DNA of 50,998 nucleotides from Deinococcales bacterium (lineage in GTDB: Bacteria; Deinococcota; Deinococci; Deinococcales; JAAFIG01), in the NCBI GenBank assembly GCA_013298595.1, contig JAAFIG010000029.1, positions 3,102 to 54,099 of the forward strand, given 5' to 3'. Shown here in pieces: positions 10,102 to 38,898 of the stretch. How positions within the stretch are numbered: the first letter of the stretch is position 1; every line of letters starts with the position of its first letter. Under the pieces are notes generated by a model. That model saw nothing but the letters and a program-made list of their open reading frames with translations, did not search any database and had not been told where the DNA came from. The translations under genes and the position numbers were made by a program.

Positions 10102-10114
10102 GATTTTGCTCGAG

Positions 10115-10143
10115 AAAGCACACCCACTTGGGTGTGCTTTTTT
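10115..10143 (+). terminator. Rho-independent terminator after the BMP gene
   Basis: AAAGCACACCC (10115-10125), 4-nt loop, GGGTGTGCTTT (10130-10140), then further Ts to 10143. Confidence 0.9.
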
Positions 10144-10199
10144 GTGAGGATTGTAGACTCGAGCGTGCTAACCTAGAGGCATAGTTGTTTTAGGATTTG

Positions 10200-12545
10200 A
10201 TGATGACACTTGCACGTCCCAAATATACAATTGCCAAGGTTTTGTTGGTATTAATTGTTATTGTTACTTTTATTCGTCAAGGCTGGGTGATCTTCCAAGA
10301 AAGTACACCTGTTATCAGTTTGATAGACAATATCATCGCGGCAACTATAAGTTTATTTACCGCTGCAATGTGTAGTTATATAGCTAGACAAAACACGTTT
10401 ACTCAAAAAGCTTGGTATTTTTTTGCCGCAGCTTTTACAGCTTTTTTCCTCGGCGATATCATTTGGATTATCCTTGAGTTCACTTTACAAAAAGACCCTT
10501 TTCCTTCTGTAGCAGATATTTTTTATTTAGCCGTTGTGCCATTATGCGGTTTTGGTTTATTAAGTTTTCCAAAAAAACCTGTTCAACAACACGAAATTAC
10601 TCGAGTTCTGCTCAATGTTTTACTGATGCTAGGTGCAATTGGCACATTTTTATGGCATTTCTTATTTTCACAAATTGTACAAAATACGCAACCAGACGTA
10701 GGTTTCTTGGTTTCTTTCGCCTACATCATTGCTGATATTACTGTTCTGGCAATTGTCTTTTTTACATTTTTTCGATCTGGTGGTCAGCAGTACCGCACTG
10801 AATTCCTATGGATTGGCGCTGGTTTTCTTTTTAATATCATTGCCGATTTAGGTTTTTCGTTCTCGAGTGCCTACGATATCGAAGCTCAAATAATGTTTCT
10901 TAATGGAGGTTGGTCTTGGTTTGCGGTCTGTATTTCAACAGCCGCTTATTTTAATTTGCATCGTTCACAAAAAGTAATAGATTTAACCAATCAACCCTTA
11001 GTATTGAATTCAGTCTTTGTTATGAGTGCCCCTTTACTTGCAAGTTTTGCCACTGCAATTATTTATGTTTTTAGCTCCCCTGATAATGTGTTACAGCACA
11101 CTGGCACAGGTATCGGTTTTTTAATTGTTTTGGTGATGGTCATGCTGCGTCAAACTGCCATGTTTATTGAAAACAAAACCCTCAATGAAGATTTACTACG
11201 CTTTTCTGATGATCTGGAGCAACGTGTGCAGCAACGCACACAACAACTCGAGTGGGCAGCAACCCATGATGCACTGACAGGTTTATCAAATCGTGTGCGT
11301 TTACAACAACATCTAAGCACTGTTTTGCAAGAAGGTACTGTGGCTGTGATGTTTATTGATTTAGATGGTTTTAAACGTATTAATGACACGCTCGGGCATC
11401 TGATTGGTGATGAATTGCTGCGTGAAGTGGCTTTTCGTTTGCGTGGCAGTATTCCAATTGATGGCTTAGTTTGTCGCACAGGAGGCGATGAATTTGTGGT
11501 TGTCTTACCTTCTCACGAAGATGCACAAACCCATGCCACTTATTTACTCAAGCAACTCGAGAAACCTTTTTTGGTTTTAGAACTCGAGTTTGCTTTAACA
11601 GCCAGTATTGGGGTGAGTATTTCACCTAAAGACGGTAATGATGCCGAAACACTACAACGTCACGCTGATGCTGCTATGTACACAGCAAAACACCTTGGGC
11701 AAGGTAAAATCGAGTTTTTTACCCAAGCAATTCGTGATCAACTCGAGCGCCGCTTAGAAATCGAGCAACATTTACGGGGTGCAATATCAAGTCATGAATT
11801 CAGTTTGCATTTCCAACCAATTGTGCAAACAACCACAAGGCAATTACAATCCTTTGAAGCGTTAATCCGTTGGAATTCGGTGGCTTTAGGCAAGGTTGCA
11901 CCAGCCGAATTTATCCATGTTGCCGAAGAAAGTGGGTTAATTGGTTCAATCACCAATTGGGTGATTGACACAGCTTTAACCCAGCAACGCCAATGGCTCG
12001 AGGCAGGTTATGCCATTGTACCAATAGCGGTGAATGTTCCAATGGCACAAATTGCTCAACCCGATTTTTTTGTTTTTGTCCAACAAAGTTTAGAAAAACA
12101 TGGTTTGCCTGCACAGTATTTGCATTTGGAATTACTCGAGGATGCCTTAGCCCAACCGCATGTGGCTGATGCACTGCGCCAATTTCGGATTTTAGGTGTG
12201 AAAATTTCCATAGATGATTTTGGTACGGGTTACTCAAATTTATCGTATTTGCATAATTTACCCATAGATACCTTAAAAATTGCACAAGTATTTATTGCTA
12301 ATGCTAATCACATCAACAGCGAAGCTTTATTAAAAACCATTATTGCTATTGGTGAAACATTAGGGCTTCATGTTATTGCCGAAGGGGTCGAAACCGCACA
12401 GCAACTCGAGCAATTACAACGCCTAAGTTGTGATGCAATTCAAGGCTATGTTTTTGCTGCACCAGCCGAAAGTAGTGCAGCAAAAACATGGTTAGAACAA
12501 CCGTTATTTAAATTTCAAAGAGAAGTGAATGGTAAAATCGCATAA
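10200..12545 (+). CDS. Membrane GGDEF-EAL cyclic di-GMP protein
   Basis: The 781-residue protein has about eight or nine membrane segments (residues 10-320) and a short coiled linker. A GGDEF domain (about 350-505) follows with the intact RTGGDEF loop, then an EAL domain (about 520-765) with EALIRW, ELLED, DDFGTGYSNLSYL, AEGVET and a final GY. Both catalytic sets look complete, so it could make and break cyclic di-GMP, with the membrane part sensing. ATG at 10200 and 10203 are both possible, and a TTG at 10197 precedes them. With the GGDEF gene at 4238 this is the second such protein in the window. Confidence 0.9.
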   Translation: MMTLARPKYTIAKVLLVLIVIVTFIRQGWVIFQESTPVISLIDNIIAATISLFTAAMCSYIARQNTFTQKAWYFFAAAFTAFFLGDIIWIILEFTLQKDPFPSVADIFYLAVVPLCGFGLLSFPKKPVQQHEITRVLLNVLLMLGAIGTFLWHFLFSQIVQNTQPDVGFLVSFAYIIADITVLAIVFFTFFRSGGQQYRTEFLWIGAGFLFNIIADLGFSFSSAYDIEAQIMFLNGGWSWFAVCISTAAYFNLHRSQKVIDLTNQPLVLNSVFVMSAPLLASFATAIIYVFSSPDNVLQHTGTGIGFLIVLVMVMLRQTAMFIENKTLNEDLLRFSDDLEQRVQQRTQQLEWAATHDALTGLSNRVRLQQHLSTVLQEGTVAVMFIDLDGFKRINDTLGHLIGDELLREVAFRLRGSIPIDGLVCRTGGDEFVVVLPSHEDAQTHATYLLKQLEKPFLVLELEFALTASIGVSISPKDGNDAETLQRHADAAMYTAKHLGQGKIEFFTQAIRDQLERRLEIEQHLRGAISSHEFSLHFQPIVQTTTRQLQSFEALIRWNSVALGKVAPAEFIHVAEESGLIGSITNWVIDTALTQQRQWLEAGYAIVPIAVNVPMAQIAQPDFFVFVQQSLEKHGLPAQYLHLELLEDALAQPHVADALRQFRILGVKISIDDFGTGYSNLSYLHNLPIDTLKIAQVFIANANHINSEALLKTIIAIGETLGLHVIAEGVETAQQLEQLQRLSCDAIQGYVFAAPAESSAAKTWLEQPLFKFQREVNGKIA

Positions 12546-12621
12546 AATAGAATTCTTACTAAACCCGCTTCGTTAGTCCCTTTGGCAATTAGTTGTAACC
12601 TATTAAATTTGTAACTGCTAC

Positions 12622-13323
12622 TTACCCCCAATAGAATGTGAGGTCTTCATTATCCGAAAAAAAATTCGAGTCTAACTTCTGACACTTCTTTTTTTCTGCA
12701 ACTAATTCCTTTTCAAATCTATTGAGAAATTCAATATCTGCAACGTGTTTATTGAAAAACCATCGTTCTGAATAATAGTGTTTCAAAATAAGTAGGACAA
12801 AAGCGTGCGGTGTAAAAATACGTCTGACAGCCCATCTATTACTCGAGTGAAACCCTATGTGCAGATGTGAGCAAGGATGATAAAACTGAGAGTATTCTCT
12901 AGGTGAATTTTCATATCTGATCATTGGAATCGTATAATTTGATTTCAACTCACCCATTTTCTGAGTGAATTCATCTTCTGAAATAGCATTTGCATCCCTA
13001 TATTCATGGAATTCTGCTGCTTTAATACATTTATCAAGTTGACCACCAATATGAGGGTTAGGAAAAAAAACATATCTCAGTTGATTATTTTTATCATAGT
13101 TAAATTGAAAATAAGAGTAATCAATCAACATAAAGTTATATACTGACAGTCGTATTCCTGTATAATATACGTCTAGGTATGTTGATTCTGGCGAAAGACA
13201 AACATCTCGGAATTCTTTATTAATTCTTACCGACGTTGGATTGCTAAAAGTTGATTCTAATTCGAGTTGACAAATTGATCTCCAAGAAGCAGTAATACTC
13301 GCGCAAAAATCAGATTCAGTCAT
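12622..13323 (-). CDS. DUF2290-type protein paired with a helicase
   Basis: The 233-residue protein is soluble and matches what I recall of DUF2290: a central YHPCSHLHIG block, then RRIFTPHAFVLLILKHYYSERW. The HxHLHIG-like cluster could bind metal, but no function is established. It starts at the base after the helicase stop (TAA directly followed by ATG), so the two are one operon. It is AT-rich and has a single CTCGAG, unlike its surroundings, which points to acquisition from elsewhere. Helicase/DUF2290 pairs are, as I recall, listed as candidate phage-defence genes; I cannot check this here. Confidence 0.65.
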   Translation of the reverse strand: MTESDFCASITASWRSICQLELESTFSNPTSVRINKEFRDVCLSPESTYLDVYYTGIRLSVYNFMLIDYSYFQFNYDKNNQLRYVFFPNPHIGGQLDKCIKAAEFHEYRDANAISEDEFTQKMGELKSNYTIPMIRYENSPREYSQFYHPCSHLHIGFHSSNRWAVRRIFTPHAFVLLILKHYYSERWFFNKHVADIEFLNRFEKELVAEKKKCQKLDSNFFSDNEDLTFYWG

Positions 13324-15441
13324 TTAGTCCTCAGAAATTATTGATTCAAGAAAGTCGTCTTCACTTAAACCCATTTTCCTAGCTTTTGCTTTATATTCTT
13401 CGAGCAGTTTTTTTGCCCTACTAGCTTTATTACTTAAATCTCGTTGAATCAAATCTATATTGCTCAAGTCTGGCATAACAAATTTAAGCATTGGAAAATT
13501 ATCTCTTGCCAAATCAATCTCGGTACACACGAGTCGTGCACCTTTTCCAATACCACTTACACGTAACCATGCTTTTGTGCGAGTAAATGCAGTAAATAGC
13601 TTATTTCTACCAGATCGAGTTGGTAGGTAAATAGCATTTATCCCCATTGCAAAAACAACAGATGCCTCATTTCCTTTCGCTCGATAGACGGTTGAAAGTG
13701 TAACCATATTTGGCATAATGAATGGGGGTTCGTTATATGGATCCGCAGTTATGTTATTTGTAGAAACACCCTGAATTGCCAGTTCTTCAGAAATTTTAGA
13801 AAAATTCCTCCTTGCATTTCGATCATCAAGTGAAATAATTAGCATATCCTCTGGTTGCAGACCACCATTTATAAATTCCTTCACTTCATTCACAATCCAG
13901 TTCACTTCATTATCAAGTGAATCAGAAATAAAGGTTTTGACTATATTTGCTTTCTGAATTGCATTAAAACTCAATGGACTATTCTCCGCTGGACGAAGAA
14001 TTTCTACTATTGTACCAACTGAAAGTTCTCCTTCAGACTGTACTTCATATCCAACATCTTGCCAATGTTCCCTACTTTCCAAAAGTTGTACTATCTCATC
14101 GCTATAAATTCCAAAACCGAGAGCGTGTGCAATAACTAGCACTTCCGCTTGATTTCTGTAACATTTACTCAACACCGTGTCATTAATTGTACCAAAAGAT
14201 AATTTCCCCTCAGCTCTTTCCAAAGAAATTCGAGGCTCATTATTGCCATCCATACCAAATAATTCTTCTGGTGAACGCATTTTTACATTTAAAATATTTT
14301 GCAATTCATCATATGCCCACACAATATTTTTTTCATCACGTGTTCCTTTTGCAAGGGCAAAACATAATTCATAAAACCCGCTTGGGAAATCTTGACCCTC
14401 ATCAATCAATACGTGATCATAAAAACATGGAACTGATGCTTGTTTAAGTAATTGACGGCAAACATAATCAAATGGGTCTGTTGCTTCTCGAGCCTCATCA
14501 AATGAAATGGGTTTTACACCTAATCTCTTACAAGTATCTGAATAAGTTCCTGGAATGTTATTTCCACCCCATCCATGTCTCACATGTATGCGATTCCAAT
14601 CAGGGTCTTCTTCTTTATAATTTCGATAAAATCTTGTTATTAAATTTGTCAATAGATTTCGTAAATTGCGGGTAAAAAATGTAACCAAGATCAAATCATC
14701 TGGATTTGAAAGATGCAGATATGCAGCTTTCATAGCTAAAATTACTGTCTTCCCAGACCCTGCTAATCCACGAATTCTCTGCGGACCCGTTGTATTTACT
14801 AATGCAGCGCGACGCTGTTTTTGATCAAAGTTTGCAATTTCACTTTCAAGTTGGGCAATTGTTACACCGAAATGCTGTTCTTCTGTATTACTGATAATAC
14901 GGCGCTGCGGTCTTGTTAAAGCTTTCGCGCCTTCTAATACTGACCTAATTTCGGTAATTATATCATCATTTAAATCCAAACTGCTTTCAGCTAACGAAGT
15001 CTTAAAACCATCAAATGATTTAATAAAAATACTATTAACTAAATCATATTCTTCGCTTATATTTCCTAATATTATTGGAATAACTGGAAATTTCAGAGTA
15101 GATAAACTACTTTTTAATAAGCGACTTTTAAGTAATCTACCAATAAATATACTACAAAACTGACCTAAAGATTCGTCAATTTCATCAATCCAATCATATT
15201 TTTGCAAATTTTTATTTTCTGAGTATAATCGAACTGCAAAAACCCCATGATTCTTTGAAATTATCAGCACATCTGGTTTATGAGCGACTGTTTCGTAATC
15301 CGAATATGCTGGAAAATCATAATAAACAATAGCATTTTGCAAATTCGCGTTTTGCTCATGATCTTTTAGATACTCTATAAAATCTCGAGCAACTGGGTCT
15401 TGGGTAATTCGGCTAGTAGTTATAAGGATATCCAGTGCCAT
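13324..15441 (-). CDS. UvrD-like SF1 helicase with a degenerate NERD-like N-terminal domain
   Basis: The 705-residue protein has an N-terminal domain (about 1-160) shaped like NERD/PD-(D/E)xK nucleases: KPDVLIISKNHGVFAVRLY. The ExK of the active site is absent (VRL). The helicase part follows: Q motif FDQKQ (205-209), Walker A GLAGSGKT (225-232), Walker B LIDEGQD (345-351), YRAKGNEASVVFA as motif V and TAFTRTKAWLRVSG as motif VI. It should bind and unwind or translocate on DNA using ATP. RBS GGAG sits 5 nt before ATG. Only two CTCGAG copies in 2.1 kb and AT-rich codons mark it as foreign to this genome. Confidence 0.8.
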   Translation of the reverse strand: MALDILITTSRITQDPVARDFIEYLKDHEQNANLQNAIVYYDFPAYSDYETVAHKPDVLIISKNHGVFAVRLYSENKNLQKYDWIDEIDESLGQFCSIFIGRLLKSRLLKSSLSTLKFPVIPIILGNISEEYDLVNSIFIKSFDGFKTSLAESSLDLNDDIITEIRSVLEGAKALTRPQRRIISNTEEQHFGVTIAQLESEIANFDQKQRRAALVNTTGPQRIRGLAGSGKTVILAMKAAYLHLSNPDDLILVTFFTRNLRNLLTNLITRFYRNYKEEDPDWNRIHVRHGWGGNNIPGTYSDTCKRLGVKPISFDEAREATDPFDYVCRQLLKQASVPCFYDHVLIDEGQDFPSGFYELCFALAKGTRDEKNIVWAYDELQNILNVKMRSPEELFGMDGNNEPRISLERAEGKLSFGTINDTVLSKCYRNQAEVLVIAHALGFGIYSDEIVQLLESREHWQDVGYEVQSEGELSVGTIVEILRPAENSPLSFNAIQKANIVKTFISDSLDNEVNWIVNEVKEFINGGLQPEDMLIISLDDRNARRNFSKISEELAIQGVSTNNITADPYNEPPFIMPNMVTLSTVYRAKGNEASVVFAMGINAIYLPTRSGRNKLFTAFTRTKAWLRVSGIGKGARLVCTEIDLARDNFPMLKFVMPDLSNIDLIQRDLSNKASRAKKLLEEYKAKARKMGLSEDDFLESIISED

Positions 15442-15457
15442 AAATTCTCCACTTACT

Positions 15458-15550
15458 AGGCTAAGTTTTTTAACTTAAACGATCAATATCTATTTAAGTT
15501 AAAAAACTTTACAAATGAACCAATTTACTTAAATAGATATTGATTAGCCT
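15458..15550. repeat. Nested, mutually exclusive inverted repeats upstream of the helicase operon
   Basis: Plus-strand order: A AGGCTAA (15458-15464), B (15465-15479, GTTTTTTAACTTAAA), C (15482-15499, ATCAATATCTATTTAAGT), B' (15493-15507), C' (15527-15544), A' TTAGCCT (15544-15550). B pairs with B', C with C', A with A'. C and B' share bases, so the B and C hairpins cannot form together. Three ACTTAAA/TTTAAGT boxes sit at 15473, 15493 and 15527. The predicted promoter of the helicase gene lies inside, suggesting operators for a regulator or a DNA-structure switch. Confidence 0.85.
15487..15514 (-). promoter_or_regulatory. Predicted promoter of the helicase/DUF2290 operon
   Basis: On the minus strand TTGTAA (15514-15509), 16 bp, TAGATA (15492-15487). 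Transcription would start near 15480, leaving a leader of about 40 nt. The -10 lies within repeat C, and both elements are flanked or covered by inverted-repeat arms. Confidence 0.45.
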
Positions 15551-15608
15551 AAAGAACAAAATTATTGATAAATATCAAAATAGATACTTTGAATAACCGC
15601 AAAAACCC

Positions 15609-17204
15609 TTATTCAAGAGTAACAAGGTAATCGTATAAATCTGGTCCACCAGTCATCACTTCAACACCAAGTTGCGGTAAATGTTCGTTGATACTCGAGA
15701 CCAGTGTTTCTGCCAGTTCTGGTGTGACATTCGGTCCAGTGAAAACCGTGACAATTTCTTGCATGGTGTACGAACCTTTGAGCATTTCTAGCACTGCTTG
15801 TTCGGATGTGCCGCCATTATAAACAAGCACATCGTCACGCAGCCCAATCACTTCGCCTTCTTTAATCTCAAGTCCGTCTATGGTGGCAGTGCGGCTGGCT
15901 TTAGTGATTTCAAAAGTCAGTACTCGAGCACTCCCTTCGGTCATTTCTGGCAAAAGTTCCTCAACTGTATTTTCTTTATGAAAACGAAACGAAGCCCCTA
16001 AGCCTTGCCCAAGGGTTCTGGTTGGAATCACATGCAAACGTTTTTCTGTCTCGAGTTCAGCTGCTTTTTGCGCTGCCATCAGCACATTTTTATTATTGGG
16101 TAAAACAATCACATCTTCGGATTCAACACTTCTGGCTGCATCGAGAATATCTTGCACACTGGGGTTTTGGGTTTGTCCACCGGAAATAATTCGCACCCCA
16201 AGACTCCGAAAAACCTTGACTAAACCATACCCAGAAACAACTGCGACTGCGCCTGTGGTTGGTGTTTCAGATTTACTAGCCGCCCCTGCCATTGCCAGGA
16301 TTTCAGTGTGCTGTTCGGACATATCTTCGATTTTGCTACGTACCATTTTACCGTATCGAGCCACAGTTGCCAGCAAAGCATCGGGGTTATCAGTATGAAT
16401 ATGCCCTTTAACAAAGCCTTCAGCGCCAACCACCAACAAAGAATCACCAAATTCTTGTACAATTTCCCGAATTTCAGCCGCTGATTTAATGGCATTCTCG
16501 AGTAAAAATTCTGTGCAGTAACCAAATTCTTCGTTCTCAAATTGATCTTGAGCGTAGGATTCGATCACAGGAGCTGGCGGCAACTCGAGACCAACAATAC
16601 TGGCATACACACCAGTCAGTACATGCAAATACCCAGCACCACCACTATCCACAACATTGGCTTGTTTTAAAACAGGTAGCAATTCTTTGGTGTGCTCGAG
16701 ACTGATTTTACCACCTTCAAGTGCACCAGCCAGCAGCTCCGTTACACTCAAATCGGCAGTTTTTGTCAATAAAGCCCGAGCTGCTATGGCTGTTTCTCGA
16801 GCTACAGTTAAAATAGTCCCTTCAACAGGTTTTTTAACCGCGTCGTACCCAGCTTTTGCGCCTCGCTCGAGAGCTTCAGTCAGAGTTAAAGCCGAGATTT
16901 CAGTATGATCACGAATCACTTCGGCAAAACCTTTGAGTAATTGCGATAAAATCACACCACTATTACCACGCGCTCCAAGCAAAGAACCATACGAAATAGC
17001 TCGAGCCACTTCTGCCATATTGGTATGGTTTGCCACATCGAGTTCGCGACGCACACTCTGCATGGTTAAGTGCATATTTGTACCTGTATCACCATCAGGC
17101 ACAGGGTACACATTTAAGGCATTCGTTTCTTCTTTATAAACACCTAGCCAATCTGTAGCATACAAGAAGCACTTTGCTAAAGTTTCACTATTTAACTTAT
17201 CCAC
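15609..17204 (-). CDS. fakA: DAK2/DegV-type protein, fatty-acid kinase catalytic subunit FakA-like (YloV)
   Basis: The protein has 531 residues from the GTG at 17204. The N-terminal Dak2 kinase domain shows the ATP/Mg motif VYPVPDGDTGTNM and GARGNSGVILSQ; the C-terminal part fits the FakA/YloV pattern. FakA phosphorylates fatty acids bound to a FakB partner for phospholipid synthesis. No FakB is in the window. The start is set by a GGAG 6 nt upstream (minus strand); an adjacent GTG at 17207 is possible, and the longer open frame is spurious because it runs through the Asp23 gene. It overlaps the Asp23 gene by 8-11 nt, as in the yloU-yloV pair of Firmicutes. Confidence 0.85.
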   Translation of the reverse strand: MDKLNSETLAKCFLYATDWLGVYKEETNALNVYPVPDGDTGTNMHLTMQSVRRELDVANHTNMAEVARAISYGSLLGARGNSGVILSQLLKGFAEVIRDHTEISALTLTEALERGAKAGYDAVKKPVEGTILTVARETAIAARALLTKTADLSVTELLAGALEGGKISLEHTKELLPVLKQANVVDSGGAGYLHVLTGVYASIVGLELPPAPVIESYAQDQFENEEFGYCTEFLLENAIKSAAEIREIVQEFGDSLLVVGAEGFVKGHIHTDNPDALLATVARYGKMVRSKIEDMSEQHTEILAMAGAASKSETPTTGAVAVVSGYGLVKVFRSLGVRIISGGQTQNPSVQDILDAARSVESEDVIVLPNNKNVLMAAQKAAELETEKRLHVIPTRTLGQGLGASFRFHKENTVEELLPEMTEGSARVLTFEITKASRTATIDGLEIKEGEVIGLRDDVLVYNGGTSEQAVLEMLKGSYTMQEIVTVFTGPNVTPELAETLVSSINEHLPQLGVEVMTGGPDLYDYLVTLE

Positions 17205-33030: not shown

Positions 33031-36000
33031 TCAAGCTCGGGGGATTGAATCTGGCAATTCGGCTAATGTGCCCTGCAAGACCAAAATGGTAAATGAAGTT
33101 CCACGTAAAACCAGTTTTTCACCTTGCCAACCTGTGCCGTATTCAAAACTTGCCACAAAAGCAGTTTCGCCACCAACACCACGCATAAACATCAAAGCCA
33201 CCTCAATGTTTGCCAAAGCAATAAAGCCTTGGGCGGTGGGTAAAACTGGTAATATTTTTTGGGTTGTTCGACCTTTTTTATTTTTGCCCTCATCCAACAT
33301 TTGGGTGTACTCGAGCGTCATAGCAATTGGGTCTAATGATAAATCAGGCTTTTCGGCAACAGCACTCGGGTCAAAACGAAAGAAACCCTGATTCAAACCA
33401 AGAACATCCAAAACCGCAGCTCGAGCTTGTAATTTTGGATGTTGCACAGCCACAATTTTGCCCTGCTGTAAATATAACGCACAACCACCTTCAAAACGAA
33501 TCATACCTTTGGGCTGCGTAATAGCAAACATTTGCACCAAAGCCGCCGCACCACCAATATCCTCGAGTAAACCGTGAATATTACTGCTGTGCAACAAGTT
33601 CTTTTTTAGCAACATCAATTGCTGCTCGAGGGCTTCTAGGTCTGTGGTAGCTGGGGCTGTACTGGTAACCGCATCTAAGTTTTGCACCCGTTGCACAACT
33701 TCTTGTAATTCGTGCACCAGATGCGAAATGCGTTTGCGGTCACTGACATCTATGGCAATACCAACCCGACCCATAACTTGAGTGCCTTGCAGTAAAGGCG
33801 CACTCCAAAATTCCCAATGCCTATTTTGCCAAGAGGCTTGTAATTGATAAATCCCTTCGTTCTTAGCCGATTCGGCTAGATCAGGTAAACCAAGCATATG
33901 CCGTACATCGTTCAGAGAACGATGTAAAACCATATCGCGTTGCTCTGGGGTAATACCTTGTCCCTCGAGTGAACGCACAATATCATTTTGGTCAATTGAG
34001 TACATCACTACAGGTAAGGCTTTAACGATATTGGAAAGTTGTAATTCTCGAGCGCGTTGTTGTTCTAAAGCTTGGTTTCGTACAATAATATTAGCGGCGT
34101 AACCAGCAATTTGCTGCATGGTGGTCATATCCGTTTCTGAAAATGCACCCACCTCGAGTGATTCAAGATTTAAGACACCCAAAGTTTGATTATCGTAGCG
34201 AATTGGCACGCAAATTTCGCTGCGAACATCCGAAAAAGCGTACTTAAAATCCGAGATTTGACTAGCGTCTTTGATCAGTATGGGTTTACCTTCTCGAGCC
34301 ACCCGCACCATCACACCATCACCTGTTAAATCAAAGCATTCAATCACACTTGGGTAATTAACATGATGCTTTAAAACCAATAAATCATTCTCGAGTAGAT
34401 AAATACTGACGAAACTGACATTAAAAGCTGCCGAGATACTGTTGACGATGGTTTCAATGGCTGTTTGCACATCTAAAACTCCAAGCAACGAAGACCGCAC
34501 TTTGTCTATTAAAATCAGATTACGGGTTTGCGCGGCAGAATATTCGTACAATTCCCTGTATTGGCGCTCAGAAACACGTAATAGTTCTTCTTGAACGTTA
34601 CGCTCGGTAACATCGGTCAGTACGCCAACTGCACCAACATAAACCCCTTTTTCAAAACGCGGATGAGCAGTATATTCGATTTGCCGCACTGAGCCATCTT
34701 TATGAATAAAACTGTATTGGTGCCGCGCAATGCTATTGTGCTGTTGCCGAACTTGGCGAGCAACACGAATGGCAGTTGCATCTTCAGGAAGCACAAAATC
34801 GGTATTATCCCGACCAATTAATTCTTCGACCACATAGCCAAGCATTTCGGCTCGAGCTGCATTGGCAAACTGAATTTTATGATCCGCATCGAGTAACTCA
34901 AGTCCTTGTGAAACAGCCGAAACAATTACTTGACCAAAATCTTTTTCGCGCCCAAGTGCATCAGTTGTTGCCACTAAACGTTGCTCGAGTTCAACATCTG
35001 CCGTGATATCTCGAGACAAAATGATCGCACCTTGGAAAATACCATTTTCAAAACGCGGTGAGCCACGCACTTCTACTACCAATTCTGCACCATTTTTACG
35101 AATCACTCGAGTGCGGTAAACATTGCTGGTACCGTTTTGTCGTTCAATAAAACGTTTTTTACCTTTTTCAACATCATCTGGGTGAAATATAAATGTACCC
35201 GTTTGATTGCGAGCTTCCTCGAGCGTATAACCTGTCATTTCTGTCCAAGCTGGATTGACCCACATCACTTGGGCTTTTGCATCCAATAAAACAATGCCCT
35301 GTAAAATTCCATTGGTAATGGTTAATGCCTGTTGGCGCTCATACTCAAGTTGACCACTGACCACTTCAAGTTGCCGCTCGAGTTCTAATGCTCGACGCAA
35401 ATTGGTATCCAGTGGAATCAGTGTTGCCATCGTGCCACCATCAGAAAGTAACGTAATTGTCGCCAGCACATCCAGCGTCTGACCATTTTTTTTATTGCCT
35501 CGCAATGGAACCAAACTGCGTTTACCTGCTTTAAAATCCTCATTAATACGAGTCGTAATTGCCTCGGGTTGCACACCAAAGGTATCATCAATTGGCGTAC
35601 CAATCAGTTCGGTGTTCAAATACCCAAACAAATTCTCGTACATAGGATTAACGTAGACAAAACGCTGTTTTGCATCGGCGAATGTAAAAGCATACGGTAA
35701 ATTCTCAACCACTGTTTGTGCGGCAGCCCGTTCTGCTTCAAGTTTAGCCAGTAAAGCTTTCATCTCGAGTTGCCGCTCGAGTTCAGCTGTGATATTGGTC
35801 ACAACGATAACCGAACCCATAAAACGCTGCCTATCTAAACGCGGTGTTTCCTCAACTCGCACTGGCACACCAGAAGCCAACCGCGTTTCGTAGACATTCA
35901 GCACACCATCGCGTTGTGTAAGCCAAATTTGCTCGAGTCGTGGTAATTGAGTTGGTTCAAAGTAATCATGACTGCTCATTTGCAGTAATTCAGTGGTTGG

Positions 36001-38898
36001 TAATTGCATCATTTCTGCCAAAGCAGGATTGACAAATTCCACGACACCATCTGCCCCAAGCAAAGCCAAACCTTGATGCACCGAATTGGTAATAATCTGT
36101 GTGATTTTTCGTTCATGCTCGAGCGCATGTTGCTCGGTAATATCGGTCATAATGGTGACAGCTCCCGCAAACTCACCATTTTCAAAACGCGGATAAGAAA
36201 CCACATCCACCAATAACTCGGCGTTTTCGGCACCATGCAACAAGCGAATTTCATGAAAAATCTCACCTGTTTCAAGCCTTGCTCGAGCCTCAAGCACCAC
36301 TTGGTGATCGCTTGCATTGGATAAAGATAAAATATCAATACCAATCATCTGTGAAACAGGCACACCCTGCATCTTAGCTCGAGCTTGGTTGACATAAACA
36401 ATTCGGTGATCTGCATCGGTCACAGAAATACCTTGATTAATGGTCTGCGTGACAGTTAAAGCAAAGTTTTTCTCTCGCTCAGCCATACAACGGGCTGCAT
36501 CTAAAGCCTTTTGCTGCTCAAGTTGCTTGGTAATATCAGAAGAAATACCGATTACACCAATAAACTGACCCGCTTCAAATCGTGGGTATAACAAGGTTTC
36601 TAAATCCCGATGACCAAATTCTTTGGTAACAACTTGCTGTTGCACCCGCACAACTTCAGCCGACTCGAGCCTTTCCAGTACCACGCCGAGTGTTTCATCC
36701 TGCGCTAAGAATTTTGCAAAAGATTGCCCAACTACGGCTACAACATCTAAGCCATGTAACCGTGCTTGAGTTGGATTAGCATATTGCACCAACCCAAGTG
36801 CATCAGTAATAAAAAGTCCTTGAACAATACTGGTAGCAATATCTAAAGCGAAACGTTGTTCACGCTCCATCTCGAGCTGAGCTGCTGCCAATTCGCGCTT
36901 TAATTGCAATTGAGCAGTGATATCACTAATCACATTGATCGAACCTGTGTACTCCCCATCCAGAAACTGTGGGTGCATAACAACTTCAATATCCATTTCA
37001 GAACCATTTCGGTGCAAAATTTTTCTGGTCTGGCGAACAATTTCACCGACATACAAACGGCTTTGGGCAGCTCGAGCCTGCATTTTTTCTGCATCCGACA
37101 AGAAATGCTCGATCTGCATACCAATCATTTCTTGGGTGGTATAACCTTGCATCGCAGCTCGAGCAGGGTTGACATAAATAAATTTATCTTCGCGGTCGTT
37201 AATACTTAAACCCTCAGAAATCGAATTAGCCACTGTGTACGTTAAACTTTGTTCACGCAATACTTCACCACGAATACGCTCGAGTTCAAGGTCTTTTAGG
37301 CGTTCAGCGGTCACGTCCGTAAATATCCCGGTTGCTCCAGAAATTTTATCCTGCACAAACAATGGGCTGATCCAAGCTTCTTGGTACGTACCACGCCATT
37401 CCATGACTTCATGCACTGGTTCACCAGCTAAAGCTCGACGCAGCGCACCAATCACTTGTGGTGAACTGGCAAAAATCTCAAAAGCATTACGACCAACTCG
37501 GCGTTGACGCACTTCTAGGCTAACATCACGCCCAGTAAATAAGGTCAACGTACCAATTTCATCACAACGAACCACCACAATTGGCAGGGTTTGTAAAACA
37601 TCAAACAACTGCGATTCACTATATTCTAAAGCATCTCGAGTACTGATCTGATCAGTGATATCAATAGCCAACGCCGATAAACCATTGGGCTGATCGTGCT
37701 GCATCAAAGGCGAAAACCACACTTCAAAATGACGATTCCGCCACTCGAGTGTTGTATGCAGCGCTTCGCCACCAAGCACTGTGGCTAGTAAACGCACAAC
37801 TTTGGGTGAATCTAAGAAAATATGAAAAGCCGATTGCCCAATCAGTTGTTGTGGTTGAAAACCAAGATCATGCAATGCCTTACCAGAAATATCCACCACC
37901 ACACCCGCATGATCGAGTTGTAAAACAAAGACTGGTATATTCTGCATTAATTGCTGTAACCGCAAATTTTGCGTTGTCTGCTGAGGATTTCCAGGTGCAC
38001 CTGAAAAAGACATTACCCCAATCACTTTGCCGCTTGCGTCGCGTAAAGCATTAAAAGCGGCTCGCACGTGGATGCGAAACCCAGACTTGTGCACTCGTTG
38101 CATCTCGAGCGGCGGTAAACGCTCACCCGCCATAACTCGAGCTGCAAAGTTCTGAGCGGTTAATTCGTTACCTTGTGGAATTAAAAAAGTGACGTTACGT
38201 CCAAGCGCTTCTTTGGCACTATAACCATATAAACGCTCTGCCCCAGCATTCCAAAAAGTCACAACACCATCCATATTTTCGGTGATAATCGCTTCGTCTG
38301 TACCTTCAAGCAATTGCTCTGCGATTTGTTTACGCTCGGAAATAGATGGCGCATTAGTTGTTAATTTTGCCTGATACGCCTCGAGCCGAGCTTCCATTTG
38401 GTCAATAAATTCGTCACCCAACAAAGTTAAAACCTCGAGTTGCCCCGAACTTAAACGCAGCGGCTGAACATCCAGTACACAAATACAACCCAAAATGTGC
38501 CCATCACGGTGCTTTAATGGAGCAACTGCCATAAAAGCAAATCGTTGAGAAGTTTGCAACAACCCAGAAACCATGCGTAAATGTGTAGCACTTTCGGACT
38601 GAAATGCCTCCTCGGGTAAAAGCACCTGCACTTGTGAAGGCAAACCGCGCGGTAACAAATCCACATTCAATTGATGCGCTGCCAGTAAGTGCACACTGGC
38701 TTCACCAACCCAACAAACAAATGCCGACTTAGCATTCACCGACAAAGCCGCCACTCGAGCCATTCGTTGCGCTTGCCGCGAAACTTCGTGCCGAACCACG
38801 GTAAAAGATTGCAGCACAGCAACACGTTTAGCATTGGTAATATCCAAAGGTTCAAACCGCACTGAAGCGCGTTTTAACTGAACCCGAGACCTTTCCAT
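33031..38898 (-). CDS. Giant multi-PAS/GAF signalling protein ending in DUF4388
   Basis: This protein has 1955 residues. Domains by eye: GAF (about 25-175), ten consecutive PAS repeats (about 190-1450), a second GAF (about 1470-1620), an eleventh PAS (about 1630-1735), a helical linker and DUF4388 (about 1780-1945). PAS cores are recognisable by repeated phrases such as FVNPA, YVNPARAAMQGYT, SDITKQLE and TDVTERN. There is no histidine kinase, GGDEF, EAL or methyl-accepting domain and no membrane segment. It is probably a cytoplasmic sensor or scaffold acting through DUF4388, a domain found in MglA/two-component settings. TAGAAT lies 8 nt before ATG. Confidence 0.85.
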   Translation of the reverse strand: MERSRVQLKRASVRFEPLDITNAKRVAVLQSFTVVRHEVSRQAQRMARVAALSVNAKSAFVCWVGEASVHLLAAHQLNVDLLPRGLPSQVQVLLPEEAFQSESATHLRMVSGLLQTSQRFAFMAVAPLKHRDGHILGCICVLDVQPLRLSSGQLEVLTLLGDEFIDQMEARLEAYQAKLTTNAPSISERKQIAEQLLEGTDEAIITENMDGVVTFWNAGAERLYGYSAKEALGRNVTFLIPQGNELTAQNFAARVMAGERLPPLEMQRVHKSGFRIHVRAAFNALRDASGKVIGVMSFSGAPGNPQQTTQNLRLQQLMQNIPVFVLQLDHAGVVVDISGKALHDLGFQPQQLIGQSAFHIFLDSPKVVRLLATVLGGEALHTTLEWRNRHFEVWFSPLMQHDQPNGLSALAIDITDQISTRDALEYSESQLFDVLQTLPIVVVRCDEIGTLTLFTGRDVSLEVRQRRVGRNAFEIFASSPQVIGALRRALAGEPVHEVMEWRGTYQEAWISPLFVQDKISGATGIFTDVTAERLKDLELERIRGEVLREQSLTYTVANSISEGLSINDREDKFIYVNPARAAMQGYTTQEMIGMQIEHFLSDAEKMQARAAQSRLYVGEIVRQTRKILHRNGSEMDIEVVMHPQFLDGEYTGSINVISDITAQLQLKRELAAAQLEMEREQRFALDIATSIVQGLFITDALGLVQYANPTQARLHGLDVVAVVGQSFAKFLAQDETLGVVLERLESAEVVRVQQQVVTKEFGHRDLETLLYPRFEAGQFIGVIGISSDITKQLEQQKALDAARCMAEREKNFALTVTQTINQGISVTDADHRIVYVNQARAKMQGVPVSQMIGIDILSLSNASDHQVVLEARARLETGEIFHEIRLLHGAENAELLVDVVSYPRFENGEFAGAVTIMTDITEQHALEHERKITQIITNSVHQGLALLGADGVVEFVNPALAEMMQLPTTELLQMSSHDYFEPTQLPRLEQIWLTQRDGVLNVYETRLASGVPVRVEETPRLDRQRFMGSVIVVTNITAELERQLEMKALLAKLEAERAAAQTVVENLPYAFTFADAKQRFVYVNPMYENLFGYLNTELIGTPIDDTFGVQPEAITTRINEDFKAGKRSLVPLRGNKKNGQTLDVLATITLLSDGGTMATLIPLDTNLRRALELERQLEVVSGQLEYERQQALTITNGILQGIVLLDAKAQVMWVNPAWTEMTGYTLEEARNQTGTFIFHPDDVEKGKKRFIERQNGTSNVYRTRVIRKNGAELVVEVRGSPRFENGIFQGAIILSRDITADVELEQRLVATTDALGREKDFGQVIVSAVSQGLELLDADHKIQFANAARAEMLGYVVEELIGRDNTDFVLPEDATAIRVARQVRQQHNSIARHQYSFIHKDGSVRQIEYTAHPRFEKGVYVGAVGVLTDVTERNVQEELLRVSERQYRELYEYSAAQTRNLILIDKVRSSLLGVLDVQTAIETIVNSISAAFNVSFVSIYLLENDLLVLKHHVNYPSVIECFDLTGDGVMVRVAREGKPILIKDASQISDFKYAFSDVRSEICVPIRYDNQTLGVLNLESLEVGAFSETDMTTMQQIAGYAANIIVRNQALEQQRARELQLSNIVKALPVVMYSIDQNDIVRSLEGQGITPEQRDMVLHRSLNDVRHMLGLPDLAESAKNEGIYQLQASWQNRHWEFWSAPLLQGTQVMGRVGIAIDVSDRKRISHLVHELQEVVQRVQNLDAVTSTAPATTDLEALEQQLMLLKKNLLHSSNIHGLLEDIGGAAALVQMFAITQPKGMIRFEGGCALYLQQGKIVAVQHPKLQARAAVLDVLGLNQGFFRFDPSAVAEKPDLSLDPIAMTLEYTQMLDEGKNKKGRTTQKILPVLPTAQGFIALANIEVALMFMRGVGGETAFVASFEYGTGWQGEKLVLRGTSFTILVLQGTLAELPDSIPRA

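Follow-up and report, generated by a model that had tools for sequence, protein, structure and literature searches.

A member of the described helicase and DUF2290 defence system

Gene pairs that combine a helicase with a DUF2290 protein have already been described as anti-phage systems: the pair reported by Rousset et al. 2022 (PMC9122126) blocks phage T7, corresponds to the PADLOC models PDLC02998/02999/03002, and goes by the name 'Rst Helicase+DUF2290' among the DefenseFinder helicases surveyed elsewhere (PMC12278908). A literature search, in which subscription journals and preprints were little covered, found no mechanistic study of the helicase and DUF2290 combination. Hachiman (HamAB) has a similar layout, with two genes for a helicase and a small protein of formerly unknown function, and there HamB has been shown to act as a sensor helicase and HamA as an effector nuclease. 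Gabija (GajAB) likewise employs a UvrD-like helicase.

The stretch of DNA analysed here (the window, 50,998 nucleotides from a Deinococcales bacterium) contains two adjacent genes on the reverse strand, one for a UvrD-family SF1 helicase of 705 aa (13324..15441) and one for a DUF2290 protein of 233 aa (12622..13323). In the list of open reading frames the last base of the helicase stop is 13324 and the DUF2290 ATG starts at 13323, confirming the stop-start contact described in an earlier note on this DNA. The same note had named both protein families from the letters, and the HMM and PADLOC checks agree: the helicase matched Pfam UvrD_C_2 (39 bits), Pfam UvrD-helicase (27.9 bits) and the PADLOC model PDLC03002 'Helicase' (443 bits, residues 25-676), while the smaller protein matched Pfam PF10053 (39.5 bits, cut-off 25) and the PADLOC DUF2290 model (53.4 bits). 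The locus thereby combines a match to the helicase model, a DUF2290 protein and adjacent co-directional genes, as in the Helicase + DUF2290 system. Both proteins, their order, their adjacency and their family-level motifs are shared with the pair of Rousset et al., but the copy in the window is divergent in sequence and comes from another lineage, and protection against T7 belongs to the homologous pair only. The likeness to Gabija is more distant, as the PADLOC GajB models match the helicase weakly (35 bits) and its partner is DUF2290 in place of the GajA nuclease; Hachiman differs in both components, as HamB belongs to the Ski2-like helicases and HamA to the DUF1837 nucleases. Judged by sequence, the window pair is an acquired member of the helicase and DUF2290 anti-phage system that DefenseFinder and PADLOC already list, in agreement with the earlier note's remark that such pairs are catalogued. 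It is genuine, and ordinary as a discovery.

Acquisition and neighbourhood of the operon

The GC content over 12-16 kb of the window is 0.35-0.37, compared with ~0.45 around it, in line with the earlier suggestion that composition marks the pair as acquired. Comparison with another genome of the same genus (G005) by blastn and empty-site alignment revealed an extra segment of 5.5 kb (~10102..15610) without counterpart there. In G005 a fakA-like and a bmp-like gene are convergent and ~57 bp apart; in the window the same two genes enclose 5.5 kb more, holding the operon and a gene for a GGDEF-EAL protein (10197..12545, forward strand; Pfam EAL 217 bits, GGDEF 142 bits). Evidence linking this gene to the defence pair beyond their shared segment was not found, nor was an integrase at the segment boundary. 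DUF2290 was found in 1/111 genomes of the phylum; beyond the window's own genome there was one more in a set of 337 genomes and none in a set of 247, and members of the family also occur on plasmids. Because of the composition and this rarity, we argue for gain of the segment by the window lineage more than for its loss from G005.

A scan of genome contigs with a helicase profile provided the best 80 of 512 confirmed relatives, which together with five plasmid loci gave 85 helicase loci. DUF2290 lay directly 3′ of the helicase in 80 of these. Three of the five exceptions (L050, L058, L103) end at a contig edge and one (L062) is disrupted; the last, L087, is truly without DUF2290, its helicase being complete and the remaining 860 nt containing no such gene. 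In its place, next to the L087 helicase (L087:176-3132), lies a converging opposite-strand ORF of 240 aa. Starting from DUF2290, a helicase was directly 5′ in all 12 plasmid regions inspected, two of which are near-identical A. pittii copies. Junctions between the two genes were within 30 nt in 78/79 cases, with 26 being overlaps of 4 nt. Pairwise divergence of the helicases correlated with that of the DUF2290 proteins (r 0.85, permutation maximum 0.14), part of which would be expected from joint inheritance alone.

Each Pfam family was seen five times at most in the 136 neighbouring ORFs, and integrases and resolvases were the commonest. Type I restriction subunits and AriA-like ATPases were also present, noted as presence and not as enrichment; plasmid copies adjoin toxin-antitoxin genes and DNA methyltransferases, and the Thioflavicoccus copy adjoins a PglZ gene. 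The family neighbourhood, including the plasmid loci, is variable and often mobile, and not the consistent housekeeping setting that the earlier note named as a refutation. Membership of the UvrD family in general might speak for a housekeeping DNA-repair operon with no part in defence, but such an operon would be hard to reconcile with the few genomes that carry DUF2290, the empty site within the genus, neighbours that do not recur, the plasmid copies and a homologue that protects against T7 (PMC9122126). We consider it very improbable.

An intact helicase core behind a degenerate N-terminal domain

The ATPase motifs of the helicase are intact as read from its sequence. Walker A (GLAGSGKT, residues 225-232, 14746..14769, reverse strand), Walker B (DEGQD, residues 347-351, 14389..14403, reverse strand) and motif VI (RNKLFTAFTRTKAW, residues 612-625, 13567..13608, reverse strand) are all present, and 84/84 helicases show no change at the key positions of Walker A, Walker B or motifs III to VI, among them G225, A227, G228, G230, K231 and T232 of Walker A, D347, E348, Q350 and D351 of Walker B, and R612, F616 and R621 of motif VI. 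An AF2 model (pLDDT 91.2) aligned by VIA-align, chiefly over the helicase core, with UvrD (Z 28.6), SLFN11 (Z 27.3) and HelD (Z 24.6).

Residues 1-177 (14911..15441, reverse strand) form a putative degenerate NERD-like domain of the PD-(D/E)XK type, as the earlier note had proposed. The proposal holds at the level of remote profile similarity and not at that of a Pfam assignment: Pfam gave no match to this domain of the window helicase at E up to 1, and NERD was not among the matches listed (25/38 families) for 75 helicase relatives. Aligned by hhalign with NERD and NERD-like sequences cleaned by hand, a set that also includes some restriction-fold relatives matching the NERD profile weakly, the profile of the N-terminal domain scored 15.8; none of 300 column permutations scored as high, and the reversed profile reached 9.95. 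The first comparison, using an uncleaned set with wrong-frame ORFs, was not significant, making the support from the cleaned set post hoc.

In the NERD register of the catalytic hairpin, D57 (codon 15271-15273, reverse strand) takes the position of the catalytic Asp, while R71 and Y73 (codons within 15223-15231, reverse strand) stand where catalytic NERD domains have Glu and Lys. Across the family the ExK pair was found at this register in 0/84 sequences, with Glu at position 71 in 1/84 and Lys at position 73 in 0/84, bearing out the earlier remark that the pair has been lost. A regular-expression match to D-x-ExK at E75-N-K77 was set aside, since it is not conserved and falls out of register, past the second strand. 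A NERD-UvrD relative from the same order (L192, G001:C13) keeps D...EVK, and DUF2290 gave no match in its genome; this contrast is one case only. Taken together, these comparisons form an argument that the N-terminal nuclease-like domain is probably dead across the family.

Conserved polar residues in the DUF2290 protein

The most conserved positions of DUF2290 are mostly polar. The earlier note had pointed to an HxHLHIG cluster, which is present although its spacing was given slightly wrongly, the real motif being H149-P-C-S-H153-L-H155-I-G157 (12853..12879, reverse strand). H149 and H153 are kept in 86/86 sequences, and position 155 holds His in 75 of the 86 and, in one subfamily, Thr (10 sequences). 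A second motif, R136-Y-E138 (Arg, aromatic, acidic; 12910..12918, reverse strand), has Arg at 136 in 86/86 and Asp or Glu at 138 in 86/86. R163 (12835..12837, reverse strand) and F175 are likewise kept in 86/86, and D68 (13120..13122, reverse strand) in 85/86. In the AF2 model (pLDDT 93.9), which consists of short strands with flanking helices, R136/E138 and H153/H155 are located on strands. DUF2290 thus appears to carry a conserved active-site-like set, D/R/(D/E)/H/H/R.

Foldseek searches with this model against PDB and BFVD gave no match at E <= 0.001, which does not show a new fold, and the best VIA-align Z was only 4.3. A Pfam match of the window protein to Toxin-JAB1 (E 0.015) was below the cut-off and occurred in 1/74 members, and was treated as chance. 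Because sequence and fold searches linked DUF2290 to no protein whose function is known or whose fold is solved, it is conservation that argues for its enzymatic nature.

The same residues bear on which of the two proteins acts against the phage. The helicase could itself be the effector and act by unwinding phage replication complexes or displacing them, with DUF2290 as a loading, specificity or structural subunit. In favour of this are the helicase's intact motifs and the alignment of its core with UvrD, HelD and the SLFN11/14 helicase domain, but a subunit with a purely structural role would not usually have D, R, D/E, H, H and R among its best conserved positions, as DUF2290 does, and we regard this alternative as unlikely. 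Instead of the effector, DUF2290 could also be a subunit with a structural or inhibitory role, or one that confers specificity. The earlier note had raised the possibility that DUF2290 is the effector, and from the conserved polar set we infer that it may be.

Proposed roles of the two proteins

The pattern of conservation suggests that sensing may fall to the helicase, and that the damaging enzyme may be the small DUF2290 protein. A sensor helicase with a DUF2290 effector (hydrolase or nuclease) is in our judgement the best model, and somewhat better than an even bet; sensing, gating, effector role and substrate are what we infer. The UvrD-like helicase would sense a DNA structure formed in phage replication, while its degenerate NERD-like domain would no longer cut and might have a scaffolding or regulatory role. 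DUF2290 would then be released or activated by the helicase. Its conserved Asp/Arg/acidic/His/His/Arg set would give it hydrolase activity, probably that of a nuclease and perhaps of an RNase, through which phage growth would be stopped or the cell halted. We liken the model to Hachiman, since a sensor (HamB) and an effector (HamA) have been demonstrated there.

Counted in support of the sensor-effector model are the PADLOC matches, the T7-protecting homologue, the conserved pairing, the intact helicase motifs, the loss of ExK, the polar set of DUF2290, the contrast with L192 and its genome G001, and the patchy distribution together with the empty site; counted against it are the L087 helicase, which occurs without DUF2290, the lack of a match between DUF2290 and any protein of known function, and the divergence of the window copy from the pair that protects against T7. 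The type of system and the protection against T7 by a relative were known previously. To these are added the family-wide argument for a dead domain and the active-site-like residues of DUF2290, and the combination of ExK loss throughout the family with an invariant D/R/(D/E)/H/H/R set yields a short list of residues bearing on which protein is the effector.

Comparison of DUF2290 with TumE

TumE (DUF6516, PF20126) is a toxin that lowers translation, with a fold described as a seven-stranded sheet carrying two helices (PMC10584680); a solved structure was not found. It has in common with DUF2290 an Arg-aromatic-acidic ... His-x-His pattern, or R-[YFW]-[DE]...H-x-[HT], the TumE consensus FRYDNtPHfP.L.tFPHHKH resembling IRYDYs......HPxSHLHIG of DUF2290. 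The partners differ, as TumE pairs with a small antitoxin and DUF2290 with a helicase.

One special form of the sensor-effector model would make DUF2290 a distant relative of TumE, a translation-targeting toxin that the helicase holds off and frees on engaging phage DNA. The shared pattern favours such a relationship, as do the short strands and flanking helices of the DUF2290 model beside the helices on a sheet of TumE (PMC10584680). Two of 74 DUF2290 members touched the Pfam TumE family (best E 0.032), but this is within chance expectation for 74 queries. An hhalign comparison of the two families aligned the motif with a score of 19.2, not above its controls: 7/1000 permutations scored as high, the reversed profile gave 18.9 and helicase decoys reached 21. 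Position 155, moreover, is Thr in one DUF2290 subfamily. With a reversed profile that comes so close and helicase segments that score higher, we treat the resemblance as a lead only, and think kinship with TumE doubtful. On the small chance that it holds, a sensor helicase of the UvrD type, its nuclease domain dead, would control a TumE-like, translation-blocking RNase, and the system would be a helicase-gated toxin and not a helicase-nuclease.

Other features of the window

Elsewhere in the window, a protein of 1955 aa (33031-38898) has seven PAS-domain matches and histidine-kinase similarity. Repeat search and folding identified overlapping inverted repeats in the leader 5′ of the helicase start (15463..15544). 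An Rfam search gave no credible match, and a family-wide regulatory element was rejected, as most relatives are without such repeats. The repeats, one of 17 nt that is perfect and one of 21 nt at 95%, could form alternative hairpins, and the folding z of the leader is -3.96.
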